Part shown: positions 4,924-60,835 of the stretch, piece after piece | How positions within the stretch are numbered: position 1 is the first letter of the stretch | Layout of the letters: each line of letters starts with the position of its first letter | Origin: Eurosta solidaginis | Lineage: Eukaryota; Arthropoda; Insecta; Diptera; Tephritidae | Direction of reading: 5' to 3' | NCBI RefSeq assembly: GCF_040869045.1 | Contig: NC_090320.1 | Location: forward strand, 118,429,112 to 118,493,111 | DNA length: 64,000 nucleotides | Notes under the pieces: model-generated | Told to the model about the DNA's origin: nothing | The model's database searches: none | The model's input: only the letters and a program-made list of their open reading frames with translations | Made by a program: the position numbers and the translations under genes

Positions 4924-5181
4924 GGTTCGAAACGAGCTCAAGGCCAGAAGCTAAATGGTTAGCGCAGCGTGCCTAAAGCGTACTGATGATGAAGGCTTAG
5001 CACCCTTCGAAATGGATCTATCTGCGCAGCTATGGCAGGTTGTCTGAAAAAATTTCTACTTACTATTCCTAAAACAAAATAAAATTTTGCAATTAAAGAA
5101 GAGAAATTAAAAAAAGAAAAATTAAAAAAACAATAATCATTACAAAAAATTATTGTTCTGGCCTTGAGCTCGTTTCGAACC
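4924..5181. repeat. Inverted-repeat locus with tRNA-like boxes and a hammerhead motif
   Basis: A 26-bp perfect inverted repeat (4924-4949 and 5156-5181) contains the B-box-like GGTTCGAAAC. Between the arms lie an A-box-like TGGTTAGCGCAGC (4956-4968) and a hammerhead ribozyme candidate (4978-5027). A separate A-rich stretch fills 5060-5150. The arrangement recalls the inverted tandem array at 38606-40604: a ribozyme-bearing, tRNA-like unit joined to an inverted partial copy. I infer a small SINE-like or retrozyme-like element. Its outer ends are not defined. Confidence 0.55.
4978..5027 (+). ncRNA. Hammerhead self-cleaving ribozyme candidate (SINE-like locus)
   Basis: The conserved core CTGATGA is at 4983-4989 and GAAA at 5009-5012. 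Helix I pairs GCGTA (4978-4982) with TGCGC (5023-5027), one pair being a G-U wobble. Helix II pairs GAAGG (4991-4995) with CCTTC (5004-5008), 5 of 5. Helix III pairs ATGG (5012-5015) with CTAT (5018-5021) across a 2-nt loop. The predicted cleavage base is C5022 (AUC triplet). One extra U (4990) sits between A9 and helix II, a position where insertions occur in some natural hammerheads. All core bases are present, so this is a strong structural match; activity is untested. Confidence 0.65.
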
Positions 5182-8307: not shown

Positions 8308-8349
8308 ATACCCTGAGGATGGCGCTGTCGCGTCGAAACGCGTAGGTAT
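8308..8349 (+). ncRNA. Hammerhead ribozyme candidate in Penelope pseudo-LTR
   Basis: Core CTGAGGA is at 8313-8319 and GAAA at 8335-8338. Helix I pairs ATACC (8308-8312) with GGTAT (8345-8349), 5 of 5. Helix II pairs GGCGC (8321-8325) with GCGTC (8330-8334), including a G-U. Helix III is the self-complementary ACGCGT (8338-8343), too short to close a loop in a monomer but able to form a dimer. The predicted cleavage base is A8344. One extra U (8320) follows the core. Minimal hammerheads with tiny or palindromic helix III are known from Penelope elements. The inverted left-arm copy (about 7415-7461, minus) has CTAAGGA and looks inactivated. Confidence 0.65.
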
Positions 8350-24847: not shown

Positions 24848-27516
24848 AGCTCTGTGAAGTTGGCACCTACTTGGTCGAATAATTAAAAAAACCATACCTC
24901 ATTCGTTTGTCCACCGTTTGTCCATGTTTGTCCAGGAAAAATTTTCGTTTGTCCACCTTTTGTTAAAAAGTTATTTCAAAAAAAAAAAAAAAAATGTGTG
25001 TGAAGTTGGCACCTCCATTTGCGAGTATTTAAAAAAACTAAATGCCATTCGTTTGTCCATCGTTTGTCCACGTTTGTCCAGGAAACATTTTCGTTTGTCC
25101 ACCTTTTGTTAAAAAGTTATTTCAAAAAAAAAAAAAAAATTCCGTGTGAAGTTGGCACCTCCATTTACAAGTAATTAAAAAAACCAAATGCCATTCGTTT
25201 GTCCATCGTTTGTCCACAATTGTCCAGGAAAAATTTTTGTTTGTCCACCTTTTGTTAAAAAGTTATAACAAAAACATTTTTTTTTTCGAAAAAACCCAAA
25301 AAAAATTTTGTTTCGCTTTATTGTGCTAAATCGTATGCCCGTCGTTTTCCCATCGTTTGCCAATCGTTTGTCCATGTTTGTCCAAGCGAAATTTTCGTTT
25401 GTCCACCTTTTGTTAAAAAGTTATTTCAAAAAAACAAAAATCGTGTGTGAAGTTGGCACCTCCATTTACGAGTAATTGAAAAAACCAAATGCCATTCGTT
25501 TGTTTTTGGCGGCCACGGTGGTGTGATGGTAGCGTGCTCCGCCTATCACACCGTATGCCCTGGGTTCAACTCCCGGGCAAAGCATCATCAAAATTTTAGA
25601 AATAAGGTTTTTCAATTAGAAGAAAATTTTTCTAAGCGGGGTCGCCACTCGGCAGTGACTGGCAAGAACTCCGAGTGTATTTCTGCCATGAAAAGCTCTC
25701 AGTGAAAACTCATCTGCCTTGCAGATGCCGTTCGGAGTCGGCATAAAACATGTAGGTCCCGTCCGGCCAATTTGTAGGGAAAATCAAGAGGAGCACGACG
25801 CAAATTGGAAGAGAAGCTCGGCCTTAGATCTCTTCGGAGGTTATCGCGCCTTACATGTATGTATGTATGTTATAACTTTTTAACAAAAGGTGGACAAACG
25901 AAAATTTTTCCTAGACAAACGTGGACAAACGATGGACAAACGAATGGCATTTGTTTTTTTTAATTTCTCGTAAATGGAGGTGCCAACTTCACACACGATT
26001 TTTGTTTTTTTGAAATACCTTTTTAACAAAAGGTATTTAAACGAAAATTTCGCTTGGACAAACATGGACAAACGATTGGCAAACGATGGGCAAACGACGG
26101 GCATACGATTTAGCACAATAAAGCGAAACAAAAATTTTTTTGGGTTTTTTCTAAAAAAAATGTTTTTGTTATAACTTTTTAACAAAAGGTGGACAAACGA
26201 GAATTTTTCCTGGACAAACGATGGTCAAACGAATGGCATTTGGTTTTTTTAATTACTCGTAAATGGAGGTGCCAACTTCACACACGATTTTTGTTTTTTT
26301 GAAATAACTTTTTAACAATAGGTGGACAAACGAAAATTTCTCCTGGACAAACATGGACAAACGATGGGCAAACGACGGACATACGATTTAGAACAATAAA
26401 GCGAAACAAAAAATTTTTTGGATTTTTTCGAAAAAAAATGTTTTTGGTTATAACTTTTTAACAAAAGGTGGACAAACGAAAATTTTTCCTGGACAAACGA
26501 TGGACAAACGAATGGCATTTGGTTTTTTTAATTACTCGTAAATGGAGGTGCCAACTTCACACACGATTTTTGTTTTTTTGAAATAACTTTTTAACAATAG
26601 GTGGACAAACGAAAATTTCTCCTGGACAAACATGGACAAACGATGGGCAAACGACGGACATACGATTTAGAACAATAAAGCGAAACAAAAAATTTTTTTG
26701 GTTTTTTCGAAAAAAAAATGTTTTTGTTATAACTTTTTAACAAAAGGTGGGCAAACGAAAAATTTTCCTGGACAAACGTGGACAAACGAATGGCATTTGG
26801 TTTTTTTAATTACTCGTAAATGGAGGTGCCAACTTCACACACGATTTTTGTTTTTTTGAAATAACTTTTTAACAAAAGGTGGACAAACGAAAATTTTTCC
26901 TGGACAATCGTGGACAAAGGATGGACAAACGAATGGCATTTGGTTTTTTTAATTACTTGTAAATGGAGGTGCCAACTTCACACACGATTTTTGTTTTTTT
27001 GAAATAACTTTTTAACGAAAGGTGGACAAACGAAAATGTTTCCTGGACAAACATGGACAAACGATTTAGCACAATAAAGCGAAACAAAATTTTTTTTGGG
27101 TTTTTTCGAAAAAAAATGTTTTTGTTATAACTTTTTAACAAAAGGTGGACAAACGAAAATTTTTCCTGGACAAACGTGGACAAACGATGGACAAACGAAT
27201 GGCATTTGGTTTTTTTAATTACTCGTAAATGGAGGTGCCAACTTCACACGGAATTTTTTTTTTTTGAAATAACTTTTTAACAAAAGGTGGACAAACGAAA
27301 ATTTTTCCTGGACAAACGTGGACAAACGAATGGCATTTAGTTTTTTTAAATACTCGCAAATGGAGGTGCCAACTTCACACACGATTTTTTTTTTTTTGAA
27401 ATAACTTTTTAACAAAAGGTGGACAAACGAAAATTTTTCCTGGACAAACATGGACAAACGGTGGACAAACGAATGAGATATGGTTTTTTTAATTATTCGA
27501 CCAACTTCACAGAGCT
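24848..27516. mobile_element. Foldback-like element with tandem-repeat inverted arms
   Basis: The ends AGCTCTGTGAAGTTGG at the left and the complementary CCAACTTCACAGAGCT at the right are flanked by the 9-bp direct repeat TCATGGTTG (24839-24847 and 27517-27525). Both arms consist of tandem units rich in 'TTTGTCCA' (left, 24890-25505) or its complement 'TGGACAAA' (right, 25870-27490), with unit spacing of about 160-270 bp. Drosophila foldback (FB) elements have long inverted arms of tandem repeats and 9-bp target duplications. No transposase frame is present, so this is non-autonomous. A SINE lies at the arm junction. The element interrupts an envelope-like gene. Confidence 0.8.
25508..25868 (+). 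mobile_element. tRNA-derived SINE (copy 1)
   Basis: About 360 bp. The head is tRNA-like with an A-box region 'TGGTGTGATGGTAGCGTGC' and a B-box 'GGGTTCAACTCCC'. The body contains 'TCTGCCATGAAAAGCTCTC' and 'CATCTGCCTTGCAGATGCCG'. The tail is (TGTA)n. A second copy in opposite orientation is at 44902-45260. It lies between the left and right arms of the foldback element. RNA polymerase III would transcribe such elements from the internal boxes. Confidence 0.85.
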
Positions 27517-38223: not shown

Positions 38224-38605
38224 TGTGGTATTACCGCATTACAAGATATTTGTACTTATGTACACGCCAGAATAGGTCTAACTTGAAATACATAAAGAAA
38301 TGAATTTCACTTTCGAACACACACGAATTACTCATAGCGGCATAACTAAGTTACATTGAACCCAGCGGGGAGCTATATCCATTTACAGTTGTTTAACCCG
38401 TAAACATAACTGAATGACAACGTCATTTTGTCGGTGCGACTGACCAAACATGTATGTAGTTATTTTTAGTGTGTAAGTATTGTACAAGTATATTGTTATA
38501 GTATTGTAAGTAGAATTCCTATAAAAGGGAAAGCATTTTGTTAATAAAGAAGAATTATAAATCTGATGTCTGCGCTGAACATTAGCGCCAACAAAAATCA
38601 TTTTG
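38224..38605 (+). repeat. Element X LTR3, left part
   Basis: It matches LTR1 and LTR2 but lacks about 60 bp after 'CTGACCAAACAT'. It is interrupted at 38606 by the inverted tandem array and resumes at 40605. Confidence 0.75.
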
Positions 38606-40604
38606 TAATTTATTTAATAATTTGGGAAAAATTTAAACAACGTGACATCAGGACGGACAAGGCGACAGCTGTTTCGATTATACCTTGTAAATCTCTTCAA
38701 AGCCTTTTCTCCCGGGAGTGGGAGTCGAACTCGCACCCCTACGATAGTTGAAATGGTTGTAAACGCATTCAGCTACGTCATGCCTGTTGTGAAGTCTTTC
38801 CCAATTGCCTTCTTTTTGCATATTTTAATCTTTTTACACATTGCATACTTCGTATGCAATTATGTGTTAAAGCTATGCTTGGTACGGCGGTTTTCAAAGA
38901 AACTTTGGTTTTGTTGCTGTTTTCGTTCTATTTATAGAACTACAACGAATTAACCAATTTTGTCTGTTTGTATGATTTTTAATAATCGGGGATTGCCCAT
39001 ATTGCTTTTTTTTAAATGTATGAAAACATTTATTTGAAGCAATTTTTTAATTTTTATAATTTATTTAATAATTTGGGAAAAATTTAAACAACGTGACATC
39101 AGGACGGACAAGGCGACAGCTGTTTCGATTATACCTTGTAAATCTCTTCAAAGCCTTTTCTCCCGGGAGTGGGAGTCGAACTCGCACCCCTACGATAGTT
39201 GAAATGGTTGTAAACGCATTCAGCTACGTCATGCCTGTTGTGAAGTCTTTCCCAATTGCCTTCTTTTTGCATATTTTAATCTTTTTACACATTGCATACT
39301 TCGTATGCAATTATGTGTTAAAGCTATGCTTGGTACGGCGGTTTTCAAAGAAACTTTGGTTTTGTTGCTGTTTTCGTTCTATTTATAGAACTACAACGAA
39401 TTAACCAATTTTGTCTGTTTGTATGATTTTTAATAATCGGGGATTGCCCATATTGCTTTTTTTTAAATGTATGAAAACATTTATTTGAAGCAATTTTTTA
39501 ATTTTTATAATTTATTTAATAATTTGGGAAAAATTTAAACAACGTGACATCAGGACGGACAAGGCGACAGCTGTTTCGATTATACCTTGTAAATCTCTTC
39601 AAAGCCTTTTCTCCCGGGAGTGGGAGTCGAACTCGCACCCCTACGCACCTTCATACATTTAAAAAAAAGCAATATGGGCAATCCCCGATTATTAAAAATC
39701 ATACAAACAGACAAAATTGGTTAATTCGTTGTAGTTCTATAAATAGAACGAAAACAGCAACAAAACCAAAGTTTCTTTGAAAACCGCCGTACCAAGCATA
39801 GCTTTAACACATAATTGCATACGAAGTATGCAATGTGTAAAAAGATTAAAATATGCAAAAAGAAGGCAATTGGGAAAGACTTCACAACAGGCATGACGTA
39901 GCTGAATGCGTTTACAACTATTTCAACTATCGTAGGGGTGCGAGTTCGACTCCCACTCCCGGGAGAAAAGGCTTTGAAGAGATTTACAAGGTATAATCGA
40001 AACAGCTGTCGCCTTGTCCGTCCTGATGTCACGTTGTTTAAATTTTTCCCAAATTATTAAATAAATTATAAAAATTAAAAAATTGCTTCAAATAAATGTT
40101 TTCATACATTTAAAAAAAAGCAATATGGGCAATCCCCGATTATTAAAAATCATACAAACAGACAAAATTGGTTAATTCGTTGTAGTTCTATAAATAGAAC
40201 GAAAACAGCAACAAAACCAAAGTTTCTTTGAAAACCGCCGTACCAAGCATAGCTTTAACACATAATTGCATACGAAGTATGCAATGTGTAAAAAGATTAA
40301 AATATGCAAAAAGAAGGCAATTGGGAAAGACTTCACAACAGGCATGACGTAGCTGAATGCGTTTACAACCATTTCAACTATCGTAGGGGTGCGAGTTCGA
40401 CTCCCACTCCCGGGAGAAAAGGCTTTGAAGAGATTTAAAAGGTATAATCGAAACAGCTGTCGCCTTGTCCGTCCTGATGTCACGTTGTTTAAATTTTTCC
40501 CAAATTATTAAATAAATTATAAAAATTAAAAAATTGCTTCAAATAAATATTTTCATACATTTAAAAAAAAGCAATATGGGCAATCCCCGATTATCAAAAA
40601 TCAT
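38606..40604. mobile_element. Inverted array of 451-bp units with tRNA-like boxes and hammerhead motifs
   Basis: Two and a partial direct units (marker CGTGACATCAGG at 38641, 39092 and 39543, period 451) are followed by two inverted units (complement at 40024 and 40475, period 451). Orientation switches at about 39645-39651. The insertion is flanked by AAAAATCATTTTG at 38593-38605 and 40605-40617, a 13-bp duplication of LTR3 sequence. Each unit has a tRNA-like segment with an A-box-like TGACGTAGCTGAATGCG and a B-box GAGTTCGACTCCC, then a hammerhead-like fold. Repeated 103-codon frames on one strand are a by-product of the repeats. Confidence 0.75.
39968..40015 (+). ncRNA. Hammerhead-like ribozyme fold in 451-bp unit (representative)
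   Basis: Helix I pairs AAGGC (39968-39972) with GCCTT (40011-40015). Helix II pairs GATT (39981-39984) with AATC (39995-39998), with a possible inner TAC/GTA extension. GAAA is at 39999-40002. Helix III is the palindrome ACAGCTGT (40002-40009) and the cleavage base is C40010 (GUC). The first core strand reads TTGAAGA (39974-39980) rather than CTGANGA, with one extra U before it. The C3-to-U change is in all five copies: minus 38659-38706, 39110-39157 and 39561-39608; plus here and 40419-40466. It may weaken activity. The B-box ends 14 nt upstream. Confidence 0.5.
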
Positions 40605-40645
40605 AAAAATCATTTTGTTTTAAATTTAAAAGCACACATTTTACA
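40605..40645 (+). repeat. Element X LTR3, right end
   Basis: AAAAATCATTTTG (target duplication copy) is followed by the last LTR bases, ...CACATTTTACA. TGGCGATCCTTCCA then follows as primer-binding site. Confidence 0.7.
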
Positions 40646-54547: not shown

Positions 54548-54937
54548 ATAGTATTCCAATTTACTCATCAATAAAACGTAAACACATAAAGAAAGAAAAA
54601 TGCATAAATATGAACCCATGTTGGCATCAAGTGACTATTACTTCATAATAAATTTGCGAACATAACAAATTTTAAGTAGGTCGACACATTTAAAATTCTG
54701 ATATGTAAAACCAAGTGTCAATAACACTTGAAGCAAAACATTATTCATAAACACATGCACATAACCATACAAATGAACATATATATTGTACTTCAAAACA
54801 AAAAAAAAAAAAAATTATGATATTTATTTGCTGACCGCTTTATGGATTTTTTTATTAATGTTAGTTTTTTAATAAACTGATGCGGTCTGGTGTGCGCTAG
54901 TGCAAGAAAAAAAGATACACTTTTGCTCTACTTAACT

Positions 54938-54974
54938 CCCTACGTTTCGCCAATCTCCTTGGCATCCTCAGGGG
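54938..54974 (-). ncRNA. Hammerhead ribozyme candidate in second Penelope copy
   Basis: On the minus strand: CTGAGGA (54965-54971), an extra U, GCC pairing with GGC around a 9-nt loop (helix II), GAAA, then the palindrome ACGT (helix III, only able to form between two copies) and cleavage base A. Helix I pairs CCC with GGG (3 bp). The layout is the same as at 8308-8349, including the extra U. With so short a helix III, cleavage would be expected mainly in a dimeric form, as described for Penelope hammerheads. Confidence 0.6.
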
Positions 54975-55187
54975 CAGGATCTTTATTTTATAAAACACAA
55001 ACAAAGATAATACATAAGAGACAATATCATATAAAAATGTATAAGTATCACTTACATTGAAAAGTTGGAAGAAATATATAATATAAAAACATTAAACATA
55101 ACAACAATTTTTTTTTTTAATTTGAGTCACATAACATAATTTATCTGTAGCATCAATGTCAGGTACATTTGTCAGACTGATTTGTTA

Positions 55188-56030
55188 TCATAAACATAAC
55201 AAATATGCTGCAGCGATTTCGTCGCCATCTTCCTTTTTGTTCATTGTTTTTTCTCTGTTTTTCAAAATATGTAGGCTCTCCAGTGTATATCTTGTTCTCT
55301 CTCTTTTCTCTGTGTCTAAAATTCTCGCGTTTTGTGTATCAGCTGTATGCGCATGTGTCAGTATATGTTCCGCAAGAGCTGTTCCGCTTTTGTTTCTTCT
55401 TATATCCGATTCGTGTTCTTGTAATCGCACTCCTTGTGGTCTTTTTGTCGTTCCAATGTAAATTTTGTTGCAGTCGTTGTTCTCTCCTCCGTTGCATTTA
55501 ATTTCGTATATGACATTGTTTCTATGTTGTGATTCTACTTTGCTTTTGGTTTTGGTGTATACAGTTGAGAGTGTGCAATTTGATTTGTACGCCAGAGATA
55601 TGTCTTGTTTGTGTTCTTTTAAGTTTTTGTTTAGCTCGTCTGAGAATTTTGGAATGTATGTGATGCTGTGGTATCGTTTTGTCTCATTTGTTGTTTGTGA
55701 AAGGGTTATTTCTTTGGAATTATTATTAATTTCTTTGGTTTTTTGTTCAATGAGGGTATTTACTAAAAGACGCGGGTAGTTGTTATTTATAAGCACTTTG
55801 CAAATTTTTTCCTTGTTCGATTCCGTAAATTGTTCATGGCTAAGGGTTAAAACTTTATTTATCATATTTTTAGCTGTACTGATTTTGTATTTTTTCGGCT
55901 GGGCTGAGAGAAAATTGATTATTCTGCCTGACGCTATAGGTTTCGAGTACCAATTGAGAAAAATTTCATTGTTGTTTCTGTGTATAAGGACATCCAAGAA
56001 CGGGATCTTTTTGTTTTCTTCTTTTTCCAT
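55188..56030 (-). CDS. Penelope RT C-terminus and GIY-YIG endonuclease
   Basis: A 280-codon frame. The start 'MEKEENKKIPFLDVLIHRNN' is the post-catalytic RT region (IPFLDV is characteristic of Penelope RTs), then 'FLNWYSKPIASGRIINFLSA'. A linker rich in Lys/Asn precedes the endonuclease: 'NNVIYEIKCNGGENNDCNKI', 'YIGTTKRPQGVRLQEHESDI' (GIY-YIG core, catalytic Arg) and 'HILTHAHTADTQNARILDTE' with His residues, then Glu in 'RTRYTLESLHI'. The CX6-8C pair of the zinc-binding insert is present. The endonuclease looks intact. The RT half is broken upstream. Confidence 0.9.
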   Translation of the reverse strand: MEKEENKKIPFLDVLIHRNNNEIFLNWYSKPIASGRIINFLSAQPKKYKISTAKNMINKVLTLSHEQFTESNKEKICKVLINNNYPRLLVNTLIEQKTKEINNNSKEITLSQTTNETKRYHSITYIPKFSDELNKNLKEHKQDISLAYKSNCTLSTVYTKTKSKVESQHRNNVIYEIKCNGGENNDCNKIYIGTTKRPQGVRLQEHESDIRRNKSGTALAEHILTHAHTADTQNARILDTEKRERTRYTLESLHILKNREKTMNKKEDGDEIAAAYLLCL

Positions 56031-56054
56031 AGTAAACTGTAATTTGTTATGATA

Positions 56055-56353
56055 CTAGTTGAAAATAACCTCAACGTCGCTTTGTTTTACAATAGCAAAA
56101 ATGTCGTCTACATATTTTACTATAAACTTTATATTTATGTTGTGAAGTTTCTTTAATTGTAAAATGGTGGCATCGAGTAAATCGTCCATGATTACGTCCG
56201 CTATTGTAGGAGATAGGGGGTTGCCCAAAGCTTTGCGTATAAGTTTTGTTATCGTACATGAAATAGTTATTGTCCTTCAGACAGAAGTTCAGTATTTCCA
56301 GAAACTTATTTCTCGGTATGTTTGTTTGGATCTGATGATCATTTGTGTGCCAT
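56055..56353 (-). pseudogene. Penelope RT catalytic region, broken
   Basis: The minus-strand pieces contain 'NKFLEILNFCLKDNNYFMYD', then a frame change near 56220. In the new frame are the conserved palm region and YVDD (codons at 56103-56114), followed by a stop near 56054 just before the 55188-56030 frame. The RT N-terminus is absent; sequence switches to the tandem array at about 56353. Confidence 0.75.
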
Positions 56354-58213
56354 GTAGATAGAGACAAAATGTCTCAATTGTGTTGTTAGTGTAGAAATGA
56401 GAAAAACTGAATTAAGCATGAAAACAAATACGAGCAGGATGGCATAGTGGTTAAAGGCTACTGCAGTTTCACCATGTGATTCACGGTTCGAATCACGATG
56501 AAACCTTTGATTAGATTACAAAATTGCCTGATGACGATTACGTTGGCGGTTTTCGAAATGGGTCCATCGCCATATGCCAGTAAATGTTTCTTTCTTTTCA
56601 GTTTCTCATAGAAAACATAATAATTGAAATTCAATTATTATAAACCGGTGTTAAGCTCATGAATTCTTAAATATAAGTATAAACTGAACACAAACAAACA
56701 TACATAAATATGTACAACTGAGCCCGAGTTTACAAAGCTTCTCATTCGCAACGAAGAAGAATTTTACAAAAAAAAATCTACATGGCACACAAATCAATAT
56801 AGAGACAAAATGTCTCACTTATGTTGTTAGTGTAGAAATGAGAAAAACTGAATTAAGCATGAAAACAAATACCAGCAGGATGGCCTAGTGGTTAAAGGCT
56901 ACTGCAGTTTCACCATGTGATTCACGGCTCGCATCCCGGTGAAACCTTTGATAACATTACAAATTGCCTGATGATGATTACGTTGGCGGTTTTGGAAATG
57001 GGTCCATCGCAATGTACCAGTAAATGTTTCTTTCTTTTCGGTTTTTCTTAGAAACCATAATAATTGAAATTCAATTATTATAAGCCGGTGTTAAGCTCAT
57101 GAATTTTTAAATATAAGTATTAACTGAACACACCATTAAACAAATATACATAAATATGTACAACTGAGCCCGAGTTTACAAAGCTTCTCATTTGCAACGA
57201 AGAAGAACTTTACAAAAACAAATCTACAGGGCACACAAATCAATATAGAGACAAAATGTCTCAATTGTGTTGTTAGTGTAGAAATGAGAAAAACTGAATT
57301 AAGCATGAAAACAAATACCAGCAGGATGGCCTAGTGGTTAAAGGCTACTGCAGTTTCACCATGGGATTCACGGTTCGAATCCCGGTGAAACCTTTGATAA
57401 CATTACAAAATTGCCTGATGATGATTACGTTGGCGGTTTTCGAAATGGGTCCATAGCAATATGGCAGTAAATGTTTCTTTCTTTTCAGTTTCTCTTAGAA
57501 AACATAATAATTGAAATTCAATTATTATAAGCTGGTGTTAAGCTCATGAGTTCTTAAATATAAGTATAAACTGAACACACCATTAAACAAACATACATAA
57601 ATATGTACAACTAAGCCCGAGTTTACAAAGCTTCTCATTCGCAACGAAGAAGAACTTTACAAAAACAAATCTACATGGCACACAAATCAATATTGAGACA
57701 AAATGTCTCAATTGTGTTGTTAGTGTAGAAATGAGAAAAACTGAATTAAGCATGAAAACAAATACCATCAGGATGGCCTAGTGGTTAAAGGCTACTGCAA
57801 TTTCACCATGTGATTCAGGGTTCGAATCCCGGGGAAACCTTTGATAACATTACAAAATTGCCTGAAGATAATTACGTTGGCGGTTTTCGAAATGGGTCCA
57901 TCGCAATATGCCAGTAAATGTTTCTTACTTTTCATTATCTCTTAGAAAACATAATAATTGAAATTCAATTATTATAATCCGGTGTTAAGCTCATGAATTC
58001 TTAAATATAAGTATAAACTGAACACACCATTAAACAAACATACATAAATATGTACAACTGAGCCCGAGTTTACAAAGCTTCTCATTCGCAACGAAGAAGA
58101 ACTTTACAAAAACAAATCTACATGGCACACAAATCAATATAGAGACAAAATGTCTCAATTGTGTTGTTAGTGTCGAAATGAGAAAAACTGAATTAAGCAT
58201 GAAAACAAATACC

Positions 58214-58290
58214 AGCAGGATGGCCTAGTGGTTAAAGGCTACTGCAGTTTCACCATGTGATTCACGGTTCGAATCCCGGTGAAACCTTTG
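58214..58290 (+). ncRNA. tRNA-like RNA polymerase III promoter segment (unit 5)
   Basis: The A-box TGGCCTAGTGG (58221-58231) and B-box GGTTCGAATCC (58266-58276) have tRNA spacing. A D-arm-like GGCC...GGCT pairs. The T-stem is imperfect and there is no plausible anticodon arm or acceptor stem, so it is tRNA-derived and not a tRNA. Equivalent segments occur in all eight units and (with different sequence) in the 38606-40604 array. Confidence 0.6.
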
Positions 58291-58303
58291 ATAACATTAC
58301 AAA

Positions 58304-58354
58304 ATTGCCTGATGATGATTACGTTGGCGGTTTTCGAAATGGGTCCATCGCAAT
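58304..58354 (+). ncRNA. Hammerhead ribozyme in ~446-bp unit (representative, unit 5)
   Basis: Helix I pairs ATTGC (58304-58308) with GCAAT (58350-58354), 5 of 5. The core CTGATGA is at 58309-58315, with an extra U next. Helix II GATTAC/GTTTTC has four pairs and two U-U mismatches. GAAA is followed by helix III ATGG-GT-CCAT with a 2-nt loop and cleavage after C (AUC). Copies start at 56523, 56963, 57410, 57857 (CTGAAGA), 58304 and 59642. Units 6 and 7 have lost the C and G of the core (TTTTTGATGA). Unit 1 has one helix I mismatch and unit 3 has A at the cleavage base. Confidence 0.7.
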
Positions 58355-59768
58355 ATGCCAGTAAATGTTTCTTTCTTTTCAGTTTCTCTTAGAAAACATA
58401 ATAATTGAAATTCAATTATTATAAGCCGGTGTTAAGCTCATGAATTCTTAAATATAAGTATAAACTGAACACACCATTAAACAAACATACATAAATATGT
58501 ACAACTGAGCCCGAGTTTACAAAGCTTCTCATTCGCAACGAAGAAGAACTTTACAAAAACAAATCTACATGGCACACAAATCAATATAGAGACAAAATGT
58601 CTCCATTGCGTTGTTAGTGTAGAAAGGAGAAAAACTAAATTAAGCATTAAAACAAATACCAGCAGGATGGTCTAGTGGTTAAAGGCTACTGCAGTTTCAC
58701 CATGTGATTCACGGTTCGAATCCCGGTGAAAACTTTGATAATATTACAAAATTTTTGATGATGATTACGGTGGCGGTTTTCGAAATGGGTCCATCGCAAT
58801 ATGCCAGTAAATGTTTCTTTCTTTTCAGTTTCTCTTAGAAAACATAATAACTGAAATTCAGTTATTATAAGCCGGTGTTAAGCTCATGAATTCTTAAATA
58901 TAAGTATAAACTGAACACACCATTAAACAAACATGCATAAATATGTACAACTGAGCCCGAGTTTACAAAGCTTCTCATTCGCAACGAAGAAGAACTTTAC
59001 AAAAACAAATCTACATGGCACACAAATCAATATAGAGACAAAATGTTTCAATTTTTTTGTTAGTGTAGAAATGAGAAAAACTGAATTAAGCATGAAAACA
59101 AATACCAGCAGGATGGCCTAGTGGTTAAAGGCTACTGCAGTTTCACCATGTGATTCACGGTTCGAATCCCGGTGAAACCTTTGATAATATTACAAAATTT
59201 TTGATGATGATTACGGTGGCGGTTTTCGAAATGGGTCCATCGCAATATGCCAGTAAATGTTTCTTTCTTTTCAGTTTCTCTTAGAAAACATAATAACTGA
59301 AATTCAGTTATTATAAGCCGGTGTTAAGCTCATGAATTCTTAAATATAAGTATAAACTGAACACACCATTAAACAAACATGCATAAATATGTACAACTGA
59401 GCCCGAGTTTACAAAGCTTCTCATTCGCAACGAAGAAGAACTTTACAAAAACAAATCTACATGGCACACAAATCAATATAGAGACAAAATGTCTCAATTT
59501 TTTTGTTAGTGTAGAAATGAGAAAAACTGAATTAAGCATGAAAACAAATACCAGCAGGATGGCCTAGTGGTTAAAGGCTACTGCAGTTTCACCATGTGAT
59601 TCACGGTTCGAATCCCGGTGAAACCTTGATAACATTACAAAATTGCCTGATGATGATTACGTTGGCGGTTTTCGAAATGGGTCCATCGCAATATGCCATG
59701 GAAAACATAATAATTGAAATTCAATTATTATAAGCCGGTGTTAAGCTCATGAATTCTTAAATATAAGT

Positions 59769-60835
59769 AAAAATACTTTAATTACACATTTCGACAAAAA
59801 TGGTACTTTATCGTTAGCAGTATATGCATCAAATGTTGCTATTGGAGCAGTTCTTCAACAAATTAACAATAATATACTAGAACATTTAGCTTATTTTTCA
59901 AGAAAATTAACTACAACAGAAACTAAATATTCAACATTTGATCGTGAACTTTTGGCAATTTATAATTTTCTTGAAGGTAGAACTTTTACAATTTATATTG
60001 ATCATAAACCTTTAATTCATGTTCTAAATTCTAAAGTAGATAGATCTCCTCGTCAAATACGTCATCTTGAATATATTGCTCAATTTACAAATGATATTCA
60101 AAATATACGTGGAAAAGACAACATAGTTGCCGACACACTTTCTCGTATTCCAGAAGTAAATGCAATTTCAACTCAAGATATAAATTTAGAAACTTTATAT
60201 AAAGAATAACAAACTGATACATTTTTACAAAAAACCATTTCTGATCAAAATTCTAAAAATAATTTAAAAGAAATTCTTATTCCAGTTATTAGTTTAAACA
60301 TATGGTGTGATGTTTCTCTACAACCTTTTCGACCTTATGTCCCACATTCTATGAGAAGAATTATATTTGACAAAATTCACTCATTATCTCATCCAAGTAT
60401 AAGAACAACTAGAAAATTAATTCAAAATAAATATTATTGGCCTAACATAAAAAGTAAAGAAATTAACGATTTGACTTCATCTTGTATCAATTTTTAAAAA
60501 TCCAAAATTTCAAGACATATTAAATCTTCTATTCAAAAAATTCAAATACCATCAGGTCGTTTTGAACATATTCAAATGGATATTGTTGGACCTTTTCCAG
60601 TTTCAAATGAAAATTGTTATATTTTAACAATTATTGATAGATTTTCAAGTTGGCCTGAAGCTTATCCACTTAAAGATATTTCAACAAATACTATAGTAAA
60701 AACTTTTATTCAAAATTATATACCACGATTTGGTATACCATTGCATATTACAGTAGATCAAGGTTCACAATTCACCTCAAAATTTTTTACGGAATTAACT
60801 AAACTTTTAGGTTCTCATAAAATTCATACATGGGT
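59769..60835 (+). pseudogene. AT-rich Ty3/gypsy RNase H-integrase fragment
   Basis: Plus-strand RNase H ('LAVYASNVAIGAVLQ', 'TTETKYSTFDRELLAIYNF', 'FTIYIDHKPLIHVL') runs in one frame to 60209 (stop). An interrupted zinc-binding region follows, then the integrase core at 60576-60835 ('MDIVGPFPVSNENCYILTII', 'PLHITVDQGSQFTSKFFTEL'). Codon third positions are almost always A or T, unlike the other gypsy copies here. It starts abruptly after the tandem array and ends at about 60835 before the integrase Glu, where a different gypsy element starts. RT, protease and gag are missing. Confidence 0.8.
59952..60209 (+). CDS. Gypsy RNase H C-terminal frame (AT-rich copy)
   Basis: An 85-codon piece of the same protein. 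It has 'TDH'-like 'IYIDHKPLIHVLNS', 'QIRHLEYIAQFTNDIQNIRG' and 'NIVADTLSRIPEVN', the standard link between RNase H and integrase in Ty3/gypsy. It reads upstream in frame to about 59770, so the Met is internal. A TAA at 60207 interrupts the connection to integrase. Confidence 0.8.
   Translation: MAIYNFLEGRTFTIYIDHKPLIHVLNSKVDRSPRQIRHLEYIAQFTNDIQNIRGKDNIVADTLSRIPEVNAISTQDINLETLYKE

Follow-up and report, generated by a model that had tools for sequence, protein, structure and literature searches.

What moves a short noncoding tandem unit with a hammerhead-like motif around the genome of a gall fly? The question is raised by an array in a 64,000-nt stretch of the Eurosta solidaginis (Tephritidae) genome, contig NC_090320.1, positions 118,429,112 to 118,493,111, hereafter termed the window. 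A first-pass annotation had described this array as ~446-bp units that join a tRNA-like promoter to a hammerhead ribozyme, in the manner of retrozymes. The favored answer, held with a probability of about two in three, is that the unit is a young non-autonomous retrozyme-like retroelement mobilized in trans by Penelope-like elements (PLEs) through a cycle involving circular RNA. The strongest evidence is the record of insertions rather than the ribozyme itself. The retrozyme-like reading gains from the dispersal of the unit, its PLE-type ends, its target-site duplications (TSDs) and the signs of a one-unit template; a working hammerhead is partly supported. No such element was found described for a tephritid in the literature searched, although an earlier mention is possible, notably in the 2014 and 2017 work on PLE hammerheads.

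A young tandem unit dispersed through the genome

The array has the period first annotated (446–447 bp) and consists of seven full units (441–447 bp), plus a partial one that has lost ~30 bp internally. The consensus used throughout is the majority sequence of the 109 units of at least 430 bp found in the window and in loci fetched from the genome; these units have a mean identity of 98.4% to it, and within the window array the other six full units are 95.7–98.4% identical to unit 5 (Table 1). Units 6 and 7 have in common the paired changes T264C and A274G, with which the 25-bp palindrome stays self-complementary (58844–58868 and 59290–59314); these two units look like a local duplication. At 447 bp and 34.5% GC, the unit lies within the ~150–450 bp and below the 50% GC by which metazoan non-LTR (long terminal repeat) retrozymes are recognized. 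No open reading frame (ORF) of 150 or more amino acids is present inside the array, whereas the neighboring PLE has one, and the reverse transcriptase and GIY-YIG coding sequences of an autonomous PLE are absent from the array. Modeled as a circle, the unit is predicted to be 64% paired; one 447-nt stretch folds barely better than its shuffles (z −1.05).

The genome-wide search that the first-pass annotation had proposed (1.9 Gb, 40 of 703 candidates scored, so that match counts are lower bounds) returned at least 183 unit matches, with each of the six large contigs and some of the small ones represented. Thirty-four loci (L009–L042) were fetched from the best matches, a choice that under-represents older copies; L041, a repeat of L040, was left out of subsequent counts. 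For L010 and L026, segmental duplication is evident from the flanks that copies share. Viral contigs searched for the tRNA-like pattern and the motif pattern, and phages searched for the unit, gave no match. The unit is thus no local satellite but a young mobile element that forms dispersed arrays at the fetched loci. Separately, the first insertion of L018 is bordered on either side by 45 bp that are near-perfect inverted copies, and this locus may belong to a larger palindrome. At L037, ~317 bp separate the array from coding sequence that belongs to another PLE and runs in the same direction.

The contrary view is that the unit is an ordinary satellite or a tandem repeat derived from a short interspersed nuclear element (SINE), spread by DNA-level exchange, with its hammerhead likeness due to chance. 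SINE-derived satellites have been described (in the portion of PMC10702118 considered), and some neighboring units, such as 6 and 7 of the window, share variants as in unequal exchange. However, the insertions number in the dozens and are dispersed, their 3ʹ ends recur and some have TSDs; in addition, the motif descriptor introduced below is rare by chance. The insertion ends strongly disfavor this explanation, which is very improbable.

Insertion ends of the PLE type

Sixty arms were counted, with the window included, L041 excluded and artefacts retained (an arm divided across L010 and L011, brief matches to the palindrome and the 19-nt piece of the window). The 3ʹ ends of 43 of these arms fall at one of two sites 30–40 nt apart, taken as reverse-transcription start sites 1 and 2, and vary in position within each site. 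The 5ʹ ends scatter, with none of the 60 in columns 312–327 and four in columns 349–359. Relative to the predicted cut in the hammerhead-like motif, the arms end 104–119 nt (site 1) and 141–151 nt (site 2) downstream. Arms have a median length of three units and a maximum of ~12, the 12-unit case (L021) being internally rearranged. Two arms, arranged head-to-head, are found in 17 of the 39 insertions (L015 at 4370 is probably a palindrome artefact) and the other 22 are one-armed; tail-to-tail arms were absent from the 39 insertions scored. Moreover, in 10 of the 13 two-arm insertions whose ends both fall in a site, one end is short and the other long (binomial P 0.046, with the short site widened to 312–334 and the pattern noticed before testing).

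Exact TSDs of at least 5 bp (5–9 bp) border the outer ends of 6 of the 17 two-arm insertions, compared with a mean of 0.07 when flanks are re-paired. An exact 10-bp TSD is also present at L023, a one-arm, 5ʹ-truncated insertion. In total, exact TSDs of 5–10 bp are seen in 7 of the 39 insertions, and one further insertion has a TSD of 4 bp. The ten bases adjoining insertions are 74–75% AT, compared with 67% farther out.

This anatomy matches that of PLEs in direction, in the number and spacing of end sites and, roughly, in distance from the cut. The Adineta PLEs, as presented in the sections of PMC3846280 drawn on, have direct pseudo-LTRs (pLTRs) plus an inverted pLTR, TSDs of 8–10 bp (also cases without), an optional 31-bp tail on one inverted pLTR, junction palindromes and sequences carried in trans between pLTRs. 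The Anolis PLE protein cuts and extends both DNA strands and starts internally, 111–118 nt into the ORF, with two start sites accounting for the tail; since its hammerhead is cut at +26, the distance from cut to start is 85–92 nt (PMC11167929). The Anolis hammerhead cleaved only with added PLE protein, and its stem II begins at the start codon (PMC11167929), which on our reading overlaps A9 of the hammerhead. Two PLE copies in the fly genome, one for each distance, end ~84 and 125–130 nt past their own cut. The unit resembles PLEs and their pLTRs in its head-to-head arms, its TSDs, its two 3ʹ-end sites 30–40 nt apart downstream of a hammerhead and the extra nucleotide after A9 that its motif shares with local PLE hammerheads. 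Unlike them, it has no coding capacity, forms arrays of short units and has a closed helix III where that of PLEs is loopless. Mobilization of the PLE type is considered highly probable. PLEs have been called a strong candidate for retrozyme mobilization (Cervera and de la Pena 2020, PMC7229834, in the part consulted), and because PLE copies with long uninterrupted frames exist in this genome, the machinery is available in principle.

Two other kinds of element bear comparison at this point. Foldback elements such as FB, Galileo and Tetris have inverted tandem arms, constant outer ends and short TSDs. The unit insertions recall them in these respects, and their head-to-head tandem arms might be the internally repetitive terminal inverted repeats of a DNA transposon moved by a transposase. 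Yet the outer ends use different sites in 10 of 13 insertions, the 3ʹ ends are scattered within each site, and exact TSDs range from 4 to 9 bp in two-arm insertions and reach 10 bp at the one-armed, truncated L023. A foldback origin is disfavored and has very little likelihood.

The second is a terminal-repeat retrotransposon in miniature (TRIM) of the Helenus type: a small LTR element that lacks autonomy, has a tRNA-like sequence within its LTR and occurs in tandem arrays. Like Helenus TRIMs, the unit is short and non-autonomous with tRNA-like boxes in every copy, and tandem arrays are reported for one Helenus family (excerpts of PMC10886601). The same excerpts give Helenus TRIMs LTRs, a primer-binding site, a polypurine tract and, in animals, 4-bp TSDs, a set that was not seen in the unit insertions. 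The fetched insertions have no LTR–internal–LTR structure, a search by eye for primer-binding sites and polypurine tracts found none convincing, the TSDs vary and the arms are inverted. This origin is extremely unlikely.

Signs of a one-unit template

Distances between units are equal within and between insertions (0.0322 versus 0.0324), so most unit differences postdate insertion. Some variants nonetheless occupy every unit of an insertion. In L022, C361T is found in 10 of 10 pieces, five per arm, and in L034, T146- and C441T are each found in 6 of 6 pieces, five in one arm and one in the other. Variants in the 37 insertions that have two or more pieces comprise 31 that are fixed (spread over 16 insertions, some of only two pieces), 112 that are partial and 1189 singletons. 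Furthermore, three or more non-fixed substitutions are common to only 8 of 20,850 piece pairs from different insertions. Seven of these pairs lie within the same fetched locus (L010, L018, L025 and L026), and the eighth is between L018 and L021. For multi-unit copying, the duplicated pairs provide a positive control. Copying of several units at once from aged arrays would have carried unit-specific variants to other loci, yet unlinked insertions hardly ever have such variants in common, so this route is disfavored. If a one-unit template gives rise to multi-unit arms, a circle is the simplest form for it. A one-unit, probably circular template is cautiously favored on these patterns of variation.

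Several arms are periodic. The minus arm of L034 runs in threes, L018 (5455) and part of L014 in twos, and L029 roughly in twos. These patterns could be laps of dimeric or trimeric circles, or they could be the product of DNA-level exchange.

The hammerhead-like motif

The type I hammerhead-like motif of the unit, with cleavage predicted after the C at unit column 208, keeps CTGANGA in six of the eight window units, as first annotated. The 5-bp helix I is intact in five of the eight, the helix III string is present in all eight, and H17 is C in seven. Among the 109 units, core and helix I are both intact in 77. Helix II is not contiguous: after an extra U come G-C and A-U pairs, two U-U mismatches, and then A-U and C-G pairs. 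A descriptor that leaves out helix II (requiring GAAA, UH, a helix I of 5 bp or more and a closed, short-looped helix III of 4 bp or more) had a single hit in 14.3 Mb of sequence simulated with the dinucleotide composition of the unit, and 12 hits in the same simulation when the helix III loop was free. This descriptor was picked after the motif had been seen, and the simulated rate is a guide, not a P value; by this measure the motif appears to exceed chance expectation.

Rfam returned no hammerhead or tRNA family at the gathering threshold over the whole window, or at E ≤ 10 in five stretches that included the array. The first-pass annotation had named a background score under hammerhead models as evidence against its ribozyme, and the Rfam result is formally of that kind; however, the same models also miss the PLE-type and related motifs of the window, so they are insensitive to this variant. 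In an alignment with six PLE loci of the same genome and two further window motifs, C3, G5, A6, G8, A9, one extra nucleotide, G10.1, C11.1 and GAAA are common. G10.1–C11.1 follows one extra nucleotide in all nine aligned sequences, and one of the six PLE loci has an altered core, CAGA for CTGA. These PLE loci (L043–L048) carry a hammerhead-like motif with one extra nucleotide after A9, and, as judged by eye, both strands of helices I and II differ from locus to locus. The ribozyme claim thus survives in part: the core and helices I and III are present in the consensus and rare by chance, but helix II is weak, Rfam gives no match and the motif is no more conserved than the rest of the unit. Judged from sequence, the chance that the motif functions as a ribozyme at some stage is about even.

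Compared with metazoan non-LTR retrozymes, as covered in the available part of PMC7229834, the unit is alike in its short AT-rich tandem repeats, its type I hammerhead-like motif, its absence of LTRs, its TSDs of more than 4 bp in several insertions and its co-occurrence with PLEs. It differs in its weaker helix II and its A and B boxes, and its insertion ends point to the PLE machinery. Schistosoma Sm-alpha and cave-cricket pDo500, compared by description rather than by sequence, likewise carry a hammerhead in tandem repeats. The hammerhead region of pDo500 is reported to be better conserved than the remainder of the repeat (from the portion of PMC2837043 used), unlike that of the gall-fly unit.

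Other hammerhead-like motifs lie elsewhere in the window. One at 4978–5027 (+) has helices I and II of 5 bp each (helix II being GAAGG/CCTTC), shares the TTCGAAATGG.TC.ATC string with the array and sits in a short element with inverted ends, which could be a second ribozyme-bearing family. A minimal hammerhead of the PLE type at 8309–8348 (+), comprising CTGAGGA, an extra U, helix II and GAAACGCGTA, lies just past an AATAAA and is probably a PLE 3ʹ end.

RNA polymerase III-like boxes

Each unit also carries sequences that resemble the consensus of A and B boxes. Their starts are 45 nt apart, in line with the tRNA spacing first noted; the hammerhead had been placed 28 nt farther on, whereas 32 nt separate the end of the 11-nt B box from CTGATGA. 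ARAGORN found no tRNA at default settings and, at a lowered threshold, only low-scoring pieces, as throughout the window. Because TTTT occurs inside the motif, at columns 190–193, an RNA polymerase III (Pol III) transcript could end before the cleavage site. The Pol III reading first proposed is doubtful as stated. Multimers from the unit would need RNA polymerase II or weak Pol III termination. Among comparable elements, Sm-alpha carries a Pol III-type promoter.

A probable chimeric insertion in the window

In the window itself, the array forms the right arm of an insertion whose left arm is a 5ʹ-truncated PLE (Table 1). The array ends at site 1, and the PLE ends where a PLE end might be expected: its similarity to the relative L044 stops ~125–130 nt past its own hammerhead cut, and its similarity to the copy L049 stops near 56338. 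The right junction is set by a homologous gypsy copy, L052, which matches from 59768 onward; the adjoining 495 bases of this full gypsy copy have no match in the window. The locus is likely to represent one chimeric insertion, in which the sequence arrangement suggests that copying switched from a PLE RNA template to one of the unit. The 19 nt between the two arms, into which a tblastn alignment ran, had been a candidate piece of the PLE ORF; this was ruled out, as the PLE copies L049–L051 have no such sequence there.

A proposed cycle

A cycle of five steps would account for these observations. First, an array would be transcribed. Second, the RNA would be cut, most likely by the hammerhead-like motif, to molecules of one unit or perhaps sometimes of two or three. 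Third, these molecules would be closed into circles. Fourth, a PLE protein would cut both strands of an AT-rich target, and reverse transcription would start inside the RNA at either site, ~104–119 or 141–151 nt past the predicted cut, from one or both target ends. Fifth, the enzyme would lap the circle several times to give a tandem arm from each end, and the arms would be joined head-to-head between short target duplications. The fourth and fifth steps are supported by the insertion anatomy, and a one-unit template by the fixation of variants; circularity, the part of the ribozyme in the second step and the promoter are inferred. In its most specific form, the proposal is tentative and falls slightly short of even odds. 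It holds that a PLE enzyme performs rolling-circle reverse transcription of a ribozyme-made circle from both ends of the break, that the arms are its laps, that the period-2 and period-3 arms of L018, L014 and L034 stem from dimeric and trimeric circles and that the window insertion is chimeric, one arm having been copied from PLE RNA and the other from the unit.

Findings that count against the proposal

A number of findings run counter to the proposed origin and cycle. With regard to insertion ends, 17 of the 60 arm ends fall outside both sites, and exact TSDs of at least 5 bp are present in just 1 of the 22 one-arm insertions. Both outer ends of L022 (columns 397 and 225) are off the two sites, although this insertion is a main witness for a one-unit template; its history may be unusual. 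Head-to-head junctions have also been ascribed to self-priming on an antisense template (in the sections of PMC3846280 drawn on). In a comparison of the unit with seven PLE 3ʹ regions, nothing convincing was found (best E 0.017 on the opposite strand and 0.33 on the same strand). Among the fetched loci, other PLE sequence is near only L037, and not as an arm. At the window locus, no TSD proves that the PLE and the array arrived together, because the gypsy element that is cut on the right is absent on the left.

The template evidence is uneven as well. No fixed variant is present in 21 of the 37 insertions, which are uninformative on a one-unit step, and fixation of the diagnostic variants is incomplete in places: L029 carries T377G in eight pieces out of nine, and L040 carries G200- in two out of three. 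Stray copies of diagnostic variants occur in L018, L021 and L022, and the plus arm of L034 breaks the period-3 pattern of its minus arm. Homogeneous source arrays could imitate a one-unit template.

The hammerhead fold of the motif is calculated at −2.5 kcal/mol versus −9.0 for the minimum-energy fold, and a 77-nt context favors a AAAAUUGCC/GGCGGUUUU hairpin over the hammerhead; for two local PLE hammerheads, the corresponding values for hammerhead and best fold are −9.0 versus −14.7 and −11.9 versus −14.1 kcal/mol. By these models, the unit motif has a weak helix II and would rather adopt another fold than the hammerhead. Across the 109 units, the motif shows no extra conservation, with 1.89 substitutions per site per 100 copies versus 1.65 elsewhere; its 13 core positions have 1.41. 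Tests for purifying selection on the motif, among the window units and among the 109 units, were negative. Dead copies need not display motif conservation. Finally, the Anolis PLE hammerhead is dispensable for insertion in vitro (PMC11167929).

Much of this would fit PLE mobilization without ribozyme or circle, with long linear multimeric transcripts of young homogeneous arrays serving as templates and the motif being a decayed or idle relic. The weak helix II, the unconserved motif, the uninformative insertions and the Anolis hammerhead mutations, which leave in vitro insertion unchanged (PMC11167929), all agree with such a view. However, the variants that L022 and L034 carry throughout both arms would then need a one-unit step after mutation, or homogenization. 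Moreover, unit-specific variants are hardly shared between unlinked insertions, where one pair has three in common, whereas same-locus neighbors do share them. Linear templates are unlikely, if distinctly less so than a satellite, foldback or Helenus origin, and a circular retrozyme-like element mobilized by PLEs is preferred.

Features of the window

Table 1. Coordinates and strands, within the window, of the array, its parts and the adjoining sequences
Feature	Position	Strand	Remark
Tandem array, 7.6 units of 447 bp, right arm of insertion	56361..59768	+	3ʹ end near unit column 317–320
Unit 5	58142..58588	+	Single difference from array consensus
A-box-like TGGCCTAGTGGTTAAAGG, unit column 80	58221..58238 (unit 5)	+	No tRNA model matched
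B-box-like GGTTCGAATCC, unit column 125	58266..58276 (unit 5)	+	No tRNA model matched
Type I hammerhead-like motif of unit 5: helix I ATTGC/GCAAT, CTGATGA, one extra U, weak helix II, GAAA, helix III	58304..58354	+	Predicted cut after C 58349
TTTT within motif, possible Pol III stop	58331..58334 (unit columns 190–193)	+	8/8 window units
25-bp near-perfect palindrome, present in each unit	58398..58422 (unit columns 257–281)	+	
First 3ʹ-end cluster, taken as reverse-transcription start site 1, unit columns 312–327	58453..58468	+	23/60 arms
Second 3ʹ-end cluster, taken as start site 2, unit columns 349–359	58490..58500	+	20/60 arms; optional tail 30–40 nt
5ʹ-truncated PLE (reverse transcriptase and GIY-YIG parts, 3ʹ untranslated region), left arm head-to-head with array	54811..56338	−	Best matches are tephritid proteins
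PLE-type minimal hammerhead in PLE 3ʹ region (CTGAGGA, extra U, GCCAA/TTGGC, GAAACGTA)	54930..54977	−	
19 nt identical to unit columns 422–440, inverted, between PLE and array	56341..56359	−	Unlike PLE copy L049 here
Interrupted gypsy-type RNase H coding sequence at right junction	59769..60209	+	

The window also contains other repeats. Adjacent tandem duplications at 38601–39645 and 39650–40609 each have a 451-bp period with 99% matches. A large irregular array at 25868–27472 is built on an 11-bp motif (TGGACAAACGA) with periods of ~132–397 bp, and a related array of opposite sense lies at 24853–25384.

Significance for retrozymes and PLEs

In the literature surveyed, the movement of animal retrozymes and the use of RNA circles as their templates have been proposed but not shown (PMC7229834, in the part consulted). 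The gall-fly unit joins Pol III-like boxes to PLE mobilization, and as a young family with dozens of well-bounded insertions it makes the questions of mobilization and template directly testable. It is, additionally, a natural substrate for asking what hammerheads do in PLEs.

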